Shown piece after piece: positions 1 to 6,973 of a stretch of 7,114 nt of DNA (position 1 is its first letter; each line of letters opens with the position of its first letter). The stretch covers positions 1-7,114 of the forward strand of contig JALOPK010000171.1 in the NCBI GenBank assembly GCA_025453925.1. Direction: 5' to 3'. The notes beneath the pieces are model-generated. The model ran no database searches, was not told where the DNA came from, and saw only the letters and a program-made list of their open reading frames with translations. Made by a program: the position numbers and the translations under genes. Source of the stretch: Candidatus Eiseniibacteriota bacterium (lineage in GTDB: Bacteria; JAFGKV01).

Positions 1-2078
1 ACCATGAGCACTCGCTCGGCTTCGGCAAGAGCATTCTGAATGTCAACGAGCTGTTGCGGGTTCTGGGTCTCCCCTCGCTTGTCGGCATCCCTCACCAGAC
101 CGTCAACTTCGTTGATTGTGTCGCGGAGCTCCCGGCGTAGACGGGCCTCCTCGGCGATCTCATTCAACCGCTTGCGGGCCTTCATGACTTGCTCGAGGGC
201 TTGCCCGATGCTTCCGACCTCCTGGTACTGTACCGCGGTGTCGATGAACACCTCGACCTCTTCGAGCTGCGTGGAGATCGGAGTATCGCCCTCGTGAACT
301 GCCAGCCGCTCGTGTTCCTTCCGGACTTCCTCGATAGCCATCTGGCAACGACGAACCTTCTCCTTCTCCTGCTTGATGCGAGCCTCTTCCTTCCGGGTCT
401 TCGCGCGGCGCGCCGCGTCCCGCGCCTGCTCGGCCGCGAGACGAGCCTCCTCGATTGCACGGGCGCGATTGGCGGAATCCGCGGCCAATCGTCGGGCCTC
501 CTCCAGACCATTGACTGCCATCCGAAGCTCCCGGGAAGCGTACTCCTCGGCACCTGCGTCACAGGCCTCCCTTACCGCCTTGTCGGCGTCTCGCAAGGAA
601 GTCTTCACCTGAGAATCGGTCCCTTCGGGTTCTTCGTAGGGCTTCAATACCGCCTGTACCGGAGGGGCGGAAGGCGTGGGGGCCGACCGCACGCTTTCCG
701 CGCTGTCTGCACGTCCGTGGGCGAGGGCTGCTCTTTCCAGGGCCTCCATTCCCAACTGCTCGCTGGCCACGAAATCGCCGGCGTCCCGCGCCTGAATCGC
801 GCGGGTCAGCGCCTCGCGGGCGGTGGCCAGGAGGGTGACGTCGCTCGGGCCGCGGCGTTGCTGGATTTCCTCGATGGCGGCCTGTGCCTCGCCTATGATG
901 GCCTCCGCCTCCTCGCGCAATAGATCAGCGGCCTTGTGGGCGGTGGGCTCATGAACGGGCGCGACGGATTCCGAGGGAGGAAAACCCGCGGCTTCCTGGT
1001 GGCCCGACGCACGCGACGCGCTTCCGCTTTCGATCGCCTCCAGTACTCGTCGGAGATCCCCCCCCGCCTCCTGGACAAGGACCCGAAGGTTGATTCCACC
1101 GGAGTCTAGTCCGGATCGTGCGGCGGCCCGACGCGCAATAGTCTCGATGGTATCCTGTTTCGGCGCTGACAGCGTCAGTAACCGACAGATGCCCAGGGCG
1201 GCACGCACACGCATGGAAAGGGTATCTACTGATGCCAGCGGTCTTCCCGTCGAGACGACGATTGGGCCGCCCTGCTGAAACACCGTGTTGAACGCCTGCA
1301 TGAATGCCTCTTCCAGCCTGGCATCGCCAGCCAGACTCTCGAGATCATCGACGACAAGCCCGTCGCCCTGACGACCTGAGGGGAATCCATCAGCGGTACC
1401 CTTGATATCCCGTGCCGCGACAAACAGCACCATGCGATTCGGGTGGTGCTTCCCAAGTTCCTGGTAGACGGCCCGAAGGAGGTGGGTCTTCCCAACACAT
1501 CCGACGCCGAGAAGCAGAATGGGCCGACGCCACTCGGCATCGTTCTTGACGAAACTCCGCAGTTCTTCAAGGACACGATGCTGGCTCTCATCGGACAGGA
1601 AGTCACCAAAGGAGCTTCCGGAGGCCGCGCTTCCAGGCCCGCCGACGGCAGGCGGCCCTTGTGCGAGTAGGTCACGAATCTGTTTCGGGAGCCCGAACAC
1701 CAGCGCCACGGGCTGGCCGAGCTGCGCCGTGAGCACTCGGGCCAATTCCGTGTCGAAGGGATCGACCGTGGCAACGCGAGTCTCACCTTCGCCACCGGCG
1801 ACGGGCAATACAGGAATGCGGGTTGCTTCCTGAGGAGTGATCCGGCCCACGGCCGCCCAGTCGACAGCAGCAGCCGACAAGGCTGGGCTCGCCAGGCCTA
1901 GACTGCCCGCAAGCCGCTCGACATCGCGAGTGCTCACATCGCCTTGCTCAAGGGCGATCTCGACCGGTGACTTGTTCGAACGTGATGATGCCTTGATGAT
2001 GTCGCGGGCGCGTTTCTTCGCGAGCAGCCCTTCGGACACCAGAATCTCAAAGAAGGTGCGTGGCTGTTTTCCAGGCAT
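1..2078 (-). CDS. MshEN domain - DnaA-type AAA+ ATPase - coiled-coil fusion protein (3' end outside window)
   Basis: The frame is open from ATG 2078 to the window edge: 692 codons, no stop. GGGAG lies 6 nt before the start. Residues about 8-140 match the MshEN/GspE-N fold of pilus and secretion ATPases, with two helical 'LVSEG' / 'ALEQG' units, then IPVLPV and VATVDPFD. Residues about 155-350 are a DnaA-like AAA+ core: Walker A GVGCVGKT (191-198) followed by HLLRAVYQEL, Walker B LVVDDLESLAG (241-251), AFNTVFQQGGPIVVST (262-277), and sensor-2-like GGDLRRVLEAI with Arg343. The arginine-finger position appears to be Ala294. From about 380 to 692 the sequence is Ala/Glu/Arg-rich and helical, broken by a Pro/Ser linker near 465-490. 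One stretch (about 494-556) resembles DUF4398-type helical repeats. No PilB motor is visible, and no DnaA HTH domain IV follows the AAA+ core. With a prepilin and its peptidase upstream, I infer an ATP-dependent organiser or regulator of a type IV pilus or secretion-like machine, cytoplasmic. It is not replication DnaA. Confidence 0.88.
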   Translation of the reverse strand, partial: MPGKQPRTFFEILVSEGLLAKKRARDIIKASSRSNKSPVEIALEQGDVSTRDVERLAGSLGLASPALSAAAVDWAAVGRITPQEATRIPVLPVAGGEGETRVATVDPFDTELARVLTAQLGQPVALVFGLPKQIRDLLAQGPPAVGGPGSAASGSSFGDFLSDESQHRVLEELRSFVKNDAEWRRPILLLGVGCVGKTHLLRAVYQELGKHHPNRMVLFVAARDIKGTADGFPSGRQGDGLVVDDLESLAGDARLEEAFMQAFNTVFQQGGPIVVSTGRPLASVDTLSMRVRAALGICRLLTLSAPKQDTIETIARRAAARSGLDSGGINLRVLVQEAGGDLRRVLEAIESGSASRASGHQEAAGFPPSESVAPVHEPTAHKAADLLREEAEAIIGEAQAAIEEIQQRRGPSDVTLLATAREALTRAIQARDAGDFVASEQLGMEALERAALAHGRADSAESVRSAPTPSAPPVQAVLKPYEEPEGTDSQVKTSLRDADKAVREACDAGAEEYASRELRMAVNGLEEARRLAADSANRARAIEEARLAAEQARDAARRAKTRKEEARIKQEKEKVRRCQMAIEEVRKEHERLAVHEGDTPISTQLEEVEVFIDTAVQYQEVGSIGQALEQVMKARKRLNEIAEEARLRRELRDTINEVDGLVRDADKRGETQNPQQLVDIQNALAEAERVLM

Positions 2079-2186: not shown

Positions 2187-2951
2187 CTATGGCGGGCCAA
2201 GAAACTCGCGCTGATACAGAGCAAGGAGCGCATCACCGGACAACGCCGCTACCAGTGACCCCATCACGAGGAAGGGCCCGAACGGGATCGGATCACCACG
2301 ACGCTTTCTCCTCGTGGACAACAGCACGATTCCCGCTGTCGCACCCAGCACGGAGGCAACGGCAAAGGCCAGAATCACGGATTTGGGCCCTAGGAACACA
2401 CCCATCGCGCCGACGAGCTTCGCGTCGCCAAGACCCATCCCCCCGCGACTCACAACTCCAAGAGCCCATAGGCATCCTGCGCCCACCACACCGGCAACCA
2501 GCCTGCTTTCCAACGACGGCCCATCTGTGGACACCCATGCCATGCTCACGCCACCGGCCGCAATGGCAAGGCACAAGGAGTCGGGGATCACGAAGCTATC
2601 GAGATCAATCACCGCGACAGCGATCAGGAGAGCAAGACACATGGCCATGACCGCTGCTTCAAGGGTGAGGCCCCTGGTGAGGTACGCGCCCACGAACACC
2701 AGGCCACCCAGCCCCTCCAGCACAGGATACCGTGTGGCGATCGGTGCGCCACAGGCCCTGCACCGCGCGGCCAGAAACAAGTAGCTGAGCAGGGGAATAT
2801 TGTCCACTGGGCGGAGGCGGGTGGTGCAACGGGGACAGCGTGAACCCGGCCAGACGAGCGACTCGCCTCTCGGAAGCCGGTGAACGACGACATTGAGGAA
2901 ACTGCCGACGCAACCGCCCACGCACAGCACGAAGAGGAGCGGATTACCCAT
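2187..2951 (-). CDS. Prepilin peptidase (A24 family, bifunctional leader peptidase/N-methyltransferase)
   Basis: This is a polytopic inner-membrane aspartic protease of the PilD/GspO/ComC type. It cleaves type IV prepilin leaders after Gly and usually methylates the new N-terminus. Numbering from the alternative GTG at 2960 (three residues more than from ATG 2951), the N-terminal domain has GSFLNVVVHRLPRGES (19-34), then two zinc-type CxxC pairs, Cys42/Cys45 and Cys67/Cys70, then the RYPVLEGLGG stretch (77-86). The peptidase core has VIDLDSFVIPD with Asp119 and MGLGDAKL with Asp179, the two expected catalytic aspartates, and PFGPFL near the end (226-231). About eight hydrophobic segments fit the family, and the length (254-257 residues) is usual, so the enzyme looks intact. 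It lies 103 nt after the prepilin-like gene, its likely substrate. I chose ATG 2951 because of GGGGAG spacing; GTG 2960 remains possible. Confidence 0.96.
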   Translation of the reverse strand: MGNPLLFVLCVGGCVGSFLNVVVHRLPRGESLVWPGSRCPRCTTRLRPVDNIPLLSYLFLAARCRACGAPIATRYPVLEGLGGLVFVGAYLTRGLTLEAAVMAMCLALLIAVAVIDLDSFVIPDSLCLAIAAGGVSMAWVSTDGPSLESRLVAGVVGAGCLWALGVVSRGGMGLGDAKLVGAMGVFLGPKSVILAFAVASVLGATAGIVLLSTRRKRRGDPIPFGPFLVMGSLVAALSGDALLALYQREFLGPP

Positions 2952-2959
2952 GCCGTCCA

Positions 2960-2965
2960 CTCCCC
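2960..2965 (-). promoter_or_regulatory. Ribosome binding site deciding the prepilin peptidase start
   Basis: On the minus strand GGGGAG lies 8 nt before the ATG at 2949-2951. For the alternative in-frame GTG at 2958-2960 the same motif would overlap the start codon itself, leaving no spacer. This favours the ATG. Confidence 0.55.
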
Positions 2966-3054: not shown

Positions 3055-3726
3055 TCACGTTTTGGGGGTCGGTAGAGGCGGGAAGTCCGGGCGGCCTCCC
3101 ACGATGCGCCCGACTTCGTCGAGATGCGAGGTGACCTCGAATCCCAGCGAATCCGACAGGATGATGCTGAATCGTTTCATCATCAAAGGACACAACAGGT
3201 TCCTGACGCCGGAACTGACGGCTTCCAGGCTGTCCAGGCTGGCGGTGTAGGAACCCGTAGCGGCTTTGTATGCATCGAGGGCGGCGCTCACCTTCCCCAT
3301 GCGATCCCTGGATCGAACGATAAGTGAGGCCCGAAGTCCCTCGGATCCCGGCTCCGCGAGCCATGATGGAACCCCGCCGTCAATCACCCCGGGATCCGAC
3401 ACGGAACACTTGATCTGCAGCCGAGTGGTGTCGGACAGGATCTCGTAGGGACTCCCATCGAACGGGCACGCCAGACCACGCAGGGCGGGATTCAGAGAGA
3501 CCAGATCCGCGAGGTTGTCGGTGAACCGACCAGTCCTCTCGAAAAACAGCTCCTCGGCGAGCTTGAGTTCCACCATGTCATTGCGGGACTGAGCGACCAT
3601 CACGGCCTTCTGCGCTCGCGCCTTCTTCTCGTTGTACTGCGGGATGAGAAGCACTGCGATCACGGCTAGGGTCGCCAGTACGATCATGACATCGATGAGA
3701 GAGATGCCAGTCCTCTTCAACCTCAT
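3055..3726 (-). CDS. Type IV prepilin-like / pseudopilin-like protein with duplicated C-terminal unit
   Basis: This 223-residue protein has a class III (type IV prepilin) signal: a short basic leader MRLKRTG, predicted cleavage after Gly7, then ISLIDVMIVLATLAVIAVLL as the hydrophobic N-terminal helix (8 to about 29). Processing would be done by the prepilin peptidase encoded next downstream. Mature residue 1 is Ile rather than Phe, and mature residue 5 is Asp12 instead of the near-invariant Glu. After the helix come two related units, about 55-121 and 147-214. Each has TGx(F/Y)TxxLxxL, then RxLxCP, then an LSD strand, then GG(V/R)P. Unit 1 also has Cys87 and Cys107 arranged like the CP..G..Y...C motif seen in many minor pilins. 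The start is well supported: AAAGGAG at 3733-3739 lies 6 nt before the ATG. It could be a minor pilin, a pseudopilin, or a periplasmic protein borrowing the pilin anchor. Confidence 0.9.
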   Translation of the reverse strand: MRLKRTGISLIDVMIVLATLAVIAVLLIPQYNEKKARAQKAVMVAQSRNDMVELKLAEELFFERTGRFTDNLADLVSLNPALRGLACPFDGSPYEILSDTTRLQIKCSVSDPGVIDGGVPSWLAEPGSEGLRASLIVRSRDRMGKVSAALDAYKAATGSYTASLDSLEAVSSGVRNLLCPLMMKRFSIILSDSLGFEVTSHLDEVGRIVGGRPDFPPLPTPKT

Positions 3727-4066: not shown

Positions 4067-6973
4067 CTATCCGACCCGCACCACGCGGAGGCTGCTCCGC
4101 CGGTCGCCGGCCCGAAGGATCGCGACGTATGCCCCGTTCGACATGGACGCTACTAGGCTGCGGTCGATCACGATGGTGCCCACGGCGGCCTCGCCATCTC
4201 GACGCCACAGGAGACGGCCCGCAAGATCATAGAGACGGAGATCGGCCCTCGTGGACGGCGCGCTCCACGTGAGGACCAGAGCCGAGCTGAAAGGATTGGG
4301 GTGGGCCTCCAGTCGCAAAGTGCCGGGTACGGGACCATGCCCATGGACGGGCAGGGTGAGACTGGCCTGAACAGTGGAATCCGCGGTCCACCACGCGGTG
4401 ACCCGGGAGGAGGCGCTGACCGCCAGACGGTCGGGAGCCGTCTGGTCTTCGACGCTGACCAATGCCACCAGGCCAAGCAGCGCAGCGCCAGGCGCCGGGT
4501 CATCCTTGAGCAATACGCACACCAGCGTGTCAGTATCGCTGGCGACGGCAACCGAGGCGTATCGGGCCACGGCACCATCGTGAGGGGCGAGTTCAAGCCG
4601 CAAGGTATCGCCCGGTCCCCCACCTCCACTGATAAATGACAGTTCCTCCCCCCCGAACGGGACCAGCTCGACTGGGGCGGGACCCGGCGGAGGCGTCGTG
4701 CGCCATGGCTGGAAGCGGATGACGGCACGCCCCGGGTTGTCAACTCCGTCCCATATGAGGGCGCTGTTGGTCCCCGTGCTATCGAGGGCCATAGTGGGCG
4801 TACCCCACCAACAATCGGCTGCCTCGAGGCTATCCCCCACGCACCATGCACCCACAGACGCAGCATAGCGGCGGTTAAACGCCAGTGCAGAAGCGGAGAC
4901 GGTGAACGTGCTTGCGTAGTCGATCACCAGTCCCGACCCGCCGTTCCCAACAACTGCGCAGGAGTCGATCGCCACGCTGCAGTCCCATGCCACATCGACC
5001 CCGAACAGGTGATTGCCCGTGACCAGCGAAGCCCGAAGCCCGCAACTGGTGCCATCCCGGGCCATGAAACCTCCTCCCCGGTTCCCCACGATCTCGCAGG
5101 CCGTCATCGTCACGGCGCATCCTGACGCGCATAGCCCCTGCAGAGCGTTCCCGTCAAGGGAGCATTGGGCAAGGGTGACCTCGCACTCAGCGGCGTAGAT
5201 GCCTCCCTGCTCATGGCGGCACACGTCGGTGTGTTCCACATGGCAGGCCCCTCCGATGGACAGGAGACCGTCCATTGCATTGTCCTCGATCACGCTATTG
5301 GCGATGTCACAGCTTCCTCCAACAAGCACCACCCCGGCTCCGTCATTCTCGCTGATGAGAGTATTGCTCGACGTGAGAGCCCCCCCGTCAACCGAGATCG
5401 CGCCGGGTCTGACGGTCGCCTGCCGGATGATGGTTCCCAGCGCTCCGGCACGGCCTCTCGCCAGCCTCCACGCCTCACGCTCACCCGCTGGCCAGGCTCC
5501 ACACCCATGGAGCCCGACTTCCTCCAGATCCGCGGCGCCGCCCTCACTGACGGCAACCCCGGTCACCGCGTCGCGAATGGCCGCCCGATTCGCCACGAAC
5601 GATCCCGTCACCTGAATGCCGGCCCAGTCGCCGGCCCTGGCCGTGCTCGCGGCACTTTGCACCCACACGGTGTCGCCTGACTGCGCGCCGAGAACGGCCT
5701 CCCCCTCTACGCGCCACGTCACGGCGCGCCCGGGGAGGGCCGCGACTATGCAGCCGGGCTGGACACGAAGTCGGTGTCCGGGGGGAACCGTGACCGGGTC
5801 AGAGAGGAGTATGGGCGGCCCTGGAGACCAGAGGGTGTCGGTGATCACCCCCGACACCAGCCTGCCGCCCAGCAGGGCTGCTGACCTGATGTTCTTGGGG
5901 CTGCCTTCGTCGCCGGCGCGGTCGGCATAGCGGACGATGACCGAGTCGCCGTCCGCAGCGAGTACGTCCGGACTCGCGCCTCCGATTCTGAGGATCCCTG
6001 AGAACGCCCCCGGCGCGTCCTCGTTCGGTGTGAGCACAGTCGAATCGCGGACCGCGCCCTGCGGCGTGTGAATCGCCACTGAGACGGGGAGTTGACCGAT
6101 CCCGGCAAGATCCGGCTCGCTCAACGACACGAGGAGGGAATCGCTGCCAGTGGGAAGGAAGGCCAATTCGCCATATCGCACATGGGCCAAGGAGAGGCTC
6201 GCCGCCACCGTGGCCACCTGGTGGTCGAAACCGACGGGCCCTCCCATTGGAGGGAGCCACCCTGTCCAGGAGCCGAGGGAATCCCAGACGACGAAGGCAA
6301 GGCTGTCGGCATCAAGCACCAGCAGAGCGCCATCTGGCGGATCCAGATCCAGCGCACACGCGATGGGCGCGTTGGCCGAGAAGACCCCGGAGCTCGTACT
6401 GGTCTCCGCCAGGTGCAAGAGCCCCGACCCGCTCCCAAGAGCGCTGGACCATGCCAGCGTCACCGTGTCGGGGGCGGATAGGGTGATGTTCGCGTCTCGA
6501 TCCTCGACAGTGAGGGTGACCGCCGAACCCACCGTCAGAGTCTCGGGGGTAACCGTGATCGTGGCAGTCTCCGAACCCACGCGGGCCGTGTCGGCCACTC
6601 CGGACACCGTCACGGCGATGACGTCGCCGTAGAACGCCTGCATTACCGTGTCAACAACCGCACCGCGGCCGAGCGTCCACCCGGCGCCGAATGGCAGGGT
6701 CAACGACGAAGTGGCCGAATCGACCACGGCGAGCGTGCGAAGGACCGTGTCACCGTTCGTCAGATTGGTGAGGAAGCACTCCGCGGCAGACGCGGTATCC
6801 TCCCAGGAAACTTCAACTCCGATCGGCTGGTTCGGCCAGACCATCAGGCTGTCCAGCCCCGTGAAGGCAACCTCGGCGGGCTGGGCGCCTGCCCCCAGAA
6901 AGCCCCATATGGCCATCAGGCAGGCCGGAATGAGCCAGCGGGATCGGATTCTCAGAACGGGAAGTTCACCCAT
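4067..6973 (-). CDS. Secreted multidomain surface protein: Ig-like modules, right-handed beta-helix, FlgD/Por-like C-terminal domain
   Basis: This 968-residue protein is predicted to be exported and extracellular. Residues 1-30 form a signal peptide: basic n-region with RIRSR, hydrophobic core from about 14 to 28, and likely cleavage after AGA-30. Two related beta-sandwich modules follow, about 134-230 and 265-365. Both carry the acidic 'ET..tGvFs' type motif (ETSTSSGVFSA; NEDAPGAFSGIL) common in bacterial surface proteins. From about 380 the sequence turns into a parallel beta-helix, opening with the typical VTVPPGHRLRVQPG cap. It continues through roughly 22-residue coils and closes with CWWGTP near 721-726 and RFQPW near 753-757. 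Residues about 884-968 (HPNPFSSALVLTWS, RLYDLAGRLLW, NGAYVAIL) match the FlgD-like Ig / Por secretion (T9SS type A) C-terminal domain. No catalytic residues are evident, so adhesion or a structural role is likelier than an enzyme. ATG 6973 is chosen because it alone gives a complete signal peptide; a weak AGGG lies 8 nt upstream. Confidence 0.92.
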   Translation of the reverse strand: MGELPVLRIRSRWLIPACLMAIWGFLGAGAQPAEVAFTGLDSLMVWPNQPIGVEVSWEDTASAAECFLTNLTNGDTVLRTLAVVDSATSSLTLPFGAGWTLGRGAVVDTVMQAFYGDVIAVTVSGVADTARVGSETATITVTPETLTVGSAVTLTVEDRDANITLSAPDTVTLAWSSALGSGSGLLHLAETSTSSGVFSANAPIACALDLDPPDGALLVLDADSLAFVVWDSLGSWTGWLPPMGGPVGFDHQVATVAASLSLAHVRYGELAFLPTGSDSLLVSLSEPDLAGIGQLPVSVAIHTPQGAVRDSTVLTPNEDAPGAFSGILRIGGASPDVLAADGDSVIVRYADRAGDEGSPKNIRSAALLGGRLVSGVITDTLWSPGPPILLSDPVTVPPGHRLRVQPGCIVAALPGRAVTWRVEGEAVLGAQSGDTVWVQSAASTARAGDWAGIQVTGSFVANRAAIRDAVTGVAVSEGGAADLEEVGLHGCGAWPAGEREAWRLARGRAGALGTIIRQATVRPGAISVDGGALTSSNTLISENDGAGVVLVGGSCDIANSVIEDNAMDGLLSIGGACHVEHTDVCRHEQGGIYAAECEVTLAQCSLDGNALQGLCASGCAVTMTACEIVGNRGGGFMARDGTSCGLRASLVTGNHLFGVDVAWDCSVAIDSCAVVGNGGSGLVIDYASTFTVSASALAFNRRYAASVGAWCVGDSLEAADCWWGTPTMALDSTGTNSALIWDGVDNPGRAVIRFQPWRTTPPPGPAPVELVPFGGEELSFISGGGGPGDTLRLELAPHDGAVARYASVAVASDTDTLVCVLLKDDPAPGAALLGLVALVSVEDQTAPDRLAVSASSRVTAWWTADSTVQASLTLPVHGHGPVPGTLRLEAHPNPFSSALVLTWSAPSTRADLRLYDLAGRLLWRRDGEAAVGTIVIDRSLVASMSNGAYVAILRAGDRRSSLRVVRVG

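Follow-up and report, generated by a model that had tools for sequence, protein, structure and literature searches.

The ATPase core of DnaA is known from the replication initiator, which assembles on DNA, and, in the form of Hda, as a clamp partner; in hetero-oligomeric AAA+ rings, such as those of the clamp loaders, the provision of arginine fingers is divided among the subunits. The MshEN domain is the c-di-GMP receptor of the ATPases MshE, PilB, and PilF and is defined by two 24-residue motifs of the form R/K/L-L-G ... L ... L ... Q (PMC5013675). Outside these ATPases it occurs as a portable regulatory module fused to REC, CheA, CheX, HD-GYP, cyclase, and kinase domains, and the main text of that survey does not name a DnaA-type AAA+ domain among its partners (PMC5013675). 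In Myxococcus, MglA, SgmX, and FrzS act on pilus formation and on the cell pole (PMC7519303, PMC11580455); SgmX, which together with MglA stimulates the formation of polar pili (PMC7519303), differs from the proteins described below in being a TPR protein. No description of an MshEN-DnaA fusion was found in open-access papers, of which a single one names both MshEN and DnaA, each only once, and none gives both Pfam numbers. Likewise, we know of no such architecture among the Myxococcus pilus regulators.

The stretch of DNA analyzed here (the window; 7,114 bp) is a whole contig of genome G000, which belongs to the same genus as the Candidatus Fermentibacteria genome G001, and every clear gene in it lies on the minus strand (Table 1). 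It codes for a protein, henceforth protein A, with just such a fusion, and the pilus genes that a preliminary description had placed beside it are indeed a prepilin peptidase and a pilin-like gene, the product of which has a hydrophobic segment by eye. Upstream of the pilin-like gene lies a gene for a beta-helix protein with a weak match to a Por-type sorting tail (18.4 bits against a cut-off of 23 bits). That description had gone on to suggest that the protein is an adaptor taken over by a type IV pilus or secretion platform and that it might have a polar role, an inference helped by the MglA/roadblock setting of one group of homologs (f117; see below). We consider the chances about even that protein A and its relatives are, in general terms, AAA+ scaffolds or regulators serving the pilus, and are less confident of the details.

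Table 1. Features of the window and the five genes between peptidase and pilB in the related genome G002
Feature	Position	Strand	Length	Basis or remarks
Protein A, MshEN + DnaA-type AAA+ + helical region	3..2078	-	692 aa	ATG start; open at contig end, second AAA+ missing
MshEN domain of protein A (residues ~5-142)	1653..2066	-		PF05157, profile comparison; c-di-GMP motif degenerate
First DnaA-type AAA+ core of protein A (residues ~152-350)	1029..1625	-		PF00308, PDB matches, model
Walker A GVGCVGKT of protein A (residues 191-198)	1485..1508	-		Motif
Walker B region of protein A, DD at end (residues 241-245)	1344..1358	-		Motif
Helical region of protein A (residues 380-692)	3..941	-		Pfam, predicted structure
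Prepilin peptidase	2187..2960	-		PF06750, PF01478; 108 bp ahead of protein A on its strand
Pilin-like protein, class III-like signal GISLIDVMIVLATLAVIAVL	3055..3726	-		Weak pilin-model matches only; syntenic ortholog in G002
Secreted right-handed beta-helix protein	4067..6973	-		Weak sorting-tail match; syntenic in G001
A, G002			983 aa	MshEN-AAA+-helical-AAA+
B, G002			436 aa	MshEN + probable degenerate AAA+
C, G002			409 aa	MshEN-AAA+
D, G002			1,993 aa	MshEN-AAA+-helical-AAA+ (two DnaA-type AAA+)
E, G002	L041:15978-17432	+	484 aa	One membrane segment (by eye), TonB_C

The N-terminal domain of protein A is recovered by the Pfam MshEN model PF05157 (residues 68-140; E = 1.1e-7, over the cut-off), and a profile of residues 1-146 built from three orthologs retrieves the solved structure of MshE (5htl; E = 7.6e-10) along with several PilBs. 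The core that follows matches Bac_DnaA (PF00308; residues 157-295; E = 5.6e-12), has DnaA as its top sequence matches in the PDB, and, in an AlphaFold model of residues 1-365 (pLDDT, 80.5), aligns to domain III of DnaA with a Z score of ~20. In the same model, the N-terminal domain displays the order of helices and strands typical of the MshEN domains of MshE, PilB, and PilF; since the fold-search matches span the AAA+ part only, the MshEN assignment rests on the sequence profiles. Both domains had been proposed in the preliminary description, as had the Walker A and Walker B motifs and sensor 2, and all of these stand. The MshEN domain is not followed by a T2SSE motor as it is in MshE, PilB, and PilF: the motor core model PF00437 gave no match in protein A at E values of up to 1 and none in P0002-P0005 at E values of up to 0.01.

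The remainder of the protein had been described as a long coiled coil. Its helical nature is upheld, but the prediction, of moderate confidence, is one of helical hairpins with one 61-residue helix rather than a single coiled coil (the full-length model of A has a low pTM of 0.28 and was used for secondary structure only). A DUF4398-like stretch at residues 494-569 lies under the cut-off of its model. The helical region is the best-conserved part of A, with identities of 66 to 87%, versus 34 to 66% for the MshEN domain and the two AAA+ cores. Its second half is 87% identical to that of the G001 ortholog over 204 columns and 66% identical to that of the G002 ortholog, compared to 55 to 66% and 41 to 42%, respectively, for the MshEN domain and the first core. 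This conservation suggests that the second half serves as a binding surface rather than simply as a spacer.

The reading frame of protein A leaves the window at its start, i.e., at the contig end, and the gene is hence incomplete. Its orthologs in two related Candidatus Fermentibacteria genomes (67% identity in G001 and 49% in G002) are 983 aa long and possess, after the helical part, a second and better-conserved DnaA-type AAA+ core at residues 738-969 (Bac_DnaA E = 3e-36 in G002). By comparison with these orthologs, what the window shows of A amounts to the first two thirds of a protein with two AAA+ cores. The gene order in G002 is pilin-like gene, peptidase, A, B, C, D, E, pilB, a small gene, pilT, and pilC, with genes for a PilS-like histidine kinase, a second PilT, and a PilR-like (NtrC-like) regulator beyond pilC; the whole cluster is on one strand, and from the pilin-like gene to pilC, neighbors overlap or are at most 138 bp apart. 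A to D are four consecutive MshEN proteins, three of which have a clear DnaA-type AAA+ domain; the fourth, B, gives no Pfam AAA+ match and a weak one in profile comparison (probability 50%; E = 1.6e-4) and probably carries a degenerate version. The peptidase and A to D occur in the same order in G001 until the contig ends within D, and this was the only locus like the window retrieved in a scan of contigs. The window's own assembly (82% complete) lacks B, C, D, and a type IV pilB, so that the A-B-C-D-pilB cluster is taken from these relatives, a point against the scaffold proposed below. Four points go beyond the preliminary description: the gene is truncated, its orthologs have a second AAA+ core, four MshEN genes stand in a row, and A has lost c-di-GMP-binding and arginine-finger residues, which we turn to below. 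Gene E, between D and pilB, has a helical part and a C-terminal TonB_C domain (E = 3e-16), which is unusual within a pilus cluster. We claim no repeat common to A, D, and E, as a seed repeat from D matched only the orthologous copy in D and a marginal second copy.

We scored c-di-GMP binding by the published motif, comprising 12 binding residues in the two 24-residue motifs (PMC5013675, extended in PMC11731258). Protein A of the window is at chance: it retains 0 and 2 of the 12 residues in its two motifs, and its total of 8/22 equals the mean of 8.1 for shuffled sequences. Its sister D is intact, with 11 to 12 of the 12 residues kept, and 10 and 8 to 9 are kept in the stand-alone paralogs and in C, respectively. 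Sequence analysis of the first AAA+ core in the window revealed that Walker A, Walker B, and the sensor 2 arginine are retained, while the sensor 1 aspartate is lost and RAA stands in place of the RSR of the arginine finger; the full catalytic set (Walker A/B, sensor 1, arginine finger, and sensor 2) is thus not complete. Walker A/B, the arginine finger, and sensor 2 all persist in the second core of the orthologs. Across the family, the arginine finger is kept in the second core of A, both cores of D, and the fusions of lineages f25 and f117 and is lost in the first core of A, in C, in the stand-alone paralogs, and in most REC-DnaA proteins; a split of this kind between subunits is known from hetero-oligomeric AAA+ rings. 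In G002, the second Walker B aspartate of the first core of A is replaced by glycine, which we count against an AAA+ assembly. Like domain III of DnaA, the first core of A has the fold, Walker A/B, sensor 2, and the lid but differs from it in the above-noted losses and in a shorter region between Walker A and Walker B. The fusions further have an MshEN domain as their N-terminal domain, and the domain IV motif (GxRDHSTV-type HTH), which is present in the DnaAs of G000, G118, and G255, is absent from full-length A, C, and D and from all of the other fusions. Absence of domain IV is a feature of Hda too, but protein A is much larger than Hda and possesses an MshEN domain.

The boldest reading, which we hold tentatively and at clearly less than an even chance, is that these proteins constitute a hetero-oligomeric DnaA-type AAA+ machine in which as many as four MshEN subunits differ in their catalytic equipment and the largest has a helical arm of more than 1,200 residues. 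Such a machine would be a constitutive part of the pilus system in several uncultured phyla, where it would link c-di-GMP, and in one lineage also MglA, to the placement of pili. In our preferred reading, to which we give about an even chance overall and less in its details, we infer from the domains, motif states, gene order, and recurrence that the subunits form a complex that assembles with ATP, docks at the motor, is gated by c-di-GMP, and controls pili. Protein A would be a subunit of a DNA-independent assembly that has given up replication initiation and works for the type IV pilus machine. The MshEN domains would dock the subunits at the motor or pilus base, like the homologous N-terminal domains in PilB, and the DnaA-type cores of A to D would join into one ATP-dependent assembly, some lending arginine fingers and some lacking them. 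The conserved helical region would link both cores of A, and a longer helical region would do so in D, yielding an extended scaffold in which the helical arms might set the size and carry partner sites. D, with all or nearly all of the binding residues, is the candidate c-di-GMP sensor; A would be a c-di-GMP-blind structural subunit, the first core of which may bind ATP and could not supply an arginine finger. The output could be the number, position, or activity of pili.

A profile of the MshEN and AAA+ domains run on 386 genomes and an extended profile run on 389, largely overlapping, recovered full-length fusions outside Fermentibacteria only in f25, f117, and genome G268, with the extended profile finding fusion carriers in 8 of the 389. 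The carriers amount to 10 genomes across four distant bacterial lineages; by phylum, all three f25 genomes, all three f117 genomes, and one of the two genomes of the phylum of G268 have a fusion. The fusions of these three groups are short. Those of f25 (435-468 aa) lie directly upstream of pilB, from which they are separated by 19 bp (G026), 30 bp (G173), and 157 bp (G311); pilB is followed in all three by pilT, a histidine kinase, a regulator, and pilC. With 20 to 23 secretion ATPase genes per f25 genome, a random gene has a chance of ~1% of lying within 1 kb of one, and the ATPase beside the fusion is in each case the top-scoring one of its genome. In G268, the fusion is 7.6 kb from pilB/pilC, which, with 15 such genes, would occur by chance in ~6% of cases and is weak evidence alone. 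The association of the fusions with pilus genes is well supported. Both the architecture and the pilus linkage thus recur in other lineages. The domain assignments and the pilus linkage withstood every check, including those that the preliminary description had set for its own refutation, and its interpretation is partly supported.

The arrangement in f25, where the fusions of two of the three genomes keep 11 of the 12 c-di-GMP residues, would also suit a direct c-di-GMP-gated regulator of PilB, in which the fusions would co-assemble with the N-domain ring of PilB and switch the motor, with no larger scaffold and no marking of the pole. The binding of c-di-GMP by the MshEN-type domains of the pilus ATPase PilF (PMC11731258) is in keeping with this. 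We nevertheless regard it as unlikely, for A and D, with two AAA+ cores each, are far bigger than a motor switch requires, and the f117 fusions keep only 4 of the 12 residues and lie beside MglA rather than pilB.

The f117 fusions occur in a compact cluster with the order ExeA-like ATPase, roadblock, MglA-like GTPase, DUF4388, fusion, and DUF4388, the MglA-like GTPase, roadblock, and DUF4388 genes adjoining the fusion in both genomes whose contig reaches that side. Given the stimulation of polar pilus formation by MglA and SgmX in Myxococcus (PMC7519303), this setting favors a polar role. It could point further, to a polarity scaffold in the sense of MglA/MglB, with the fusions marking the cell pole and acting upstream of pili and their linkage to pilus genes reflecting co-regulation. 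This is more doubtful still, given that no MglA-type gene was seen beside the fusions of Fermentibacteria, f25, and G268 in the gene lists examined. Two observations count against a pilus-serving role as such: no pilus motor gene is found near the f117 fusion, and no pilus genes were seen near the stand-alone MshEN-DnaA paralogs in G000 and G002 (L043:11600-12931 and L084:1534-2730, both on the minus strand).

Phylogenetic analysis of the MshEN domains grouped 15 of the 18 fusion domains (all except those of A) with support of 98/98, apart from the PilB domains and with one secretion ATPase row inside; a constraint holding these 15 together was not rejected (p = 0.46). In the AAA+ tree, from which the first core of the window protein, too long a branch to place, was left out, the bona fide DnaAs cluster in a single clade (98/94) that contains none of the fusions included. 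An origin of all of the fusion AAA+ domains in one clade was rejected by the AU test (p-AU = 0.016), which counts against the proposed AAA+ scaffold, whereas a clade of the fusions, the REC-DnaA proteins, and the second core of D was not (p = 0.10). We read this tentatively as an old family of nonreplicative DnaA-type AAA+ proteins with some domain exchange. That the fusions are instead replication- or DNA-linked regulators of the DnaA/Hda group that lie near pilus genes by chance is very improbable: DnaA and Hda are their nearest AAA+ relatives, but the domain IV motif is missing, protein A scores far below the NCBIfam cut-offs for the DnaA equivalog (59.2 versus 343.9 bits) and Hda (54.5 versus 194.8 bits), the window's genome has a canonical DnaA (L003), the DnaA clade holds no other fusion, and the pilus linkage is recurrent.

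The ATPase of DnaA hence appears to have been recruited beside pilus and cell polarity genes for a nonreplicative role. If the proposed pilus-serving AAA+ machine is real, ATP-dependent assembly of the initiator type would have found a second use in the construction or regulation of a motility machine, with the DNA-binding domain swapped for a pilus motor domain. The initiator ATPase fold would then have a role away from DNA, and the proteins would form a new class of type IV pilus regulators, open to testing in a tractable host.

DnaA-type AAA+ domains are found in several further contexts in these genomes. Fermentibacteria genomes have ~9 to 13 matches each, and in the window's own genome, five proteins of 490 to 701 aa (L002, L004, L006, L007, and L008) are apparent fusions of REC to a DnaA-type AAA+, with the REC domain confirmed by Pfam in L006. 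Proteins of family f13 are ~1,750 to 2,130 aa long (L082:9958-16356, minus strand; L083:4480-9732, plus strand, crossing an N run; and L085:8725-14085, minus strand) and have a cysteine-rich start that resembles a primase zinc finger by eye; in L082, Pfam identifies numerous TPR repeats, with a DnaA-type AAA+ at the C terminus. In the f25 genome G026, a 1,746-aa protein (L076:3512-8752, minus strand) without an MshEN domain and away from pilus genes has a very long coiled region with a DnaA-type AAA+ toward either end. Finally, a 701-aa protein of G107 (L070:331-2436, plus strand) consists of two tandem canonical DnaA-type AAA+ domains without the domain IV motif.
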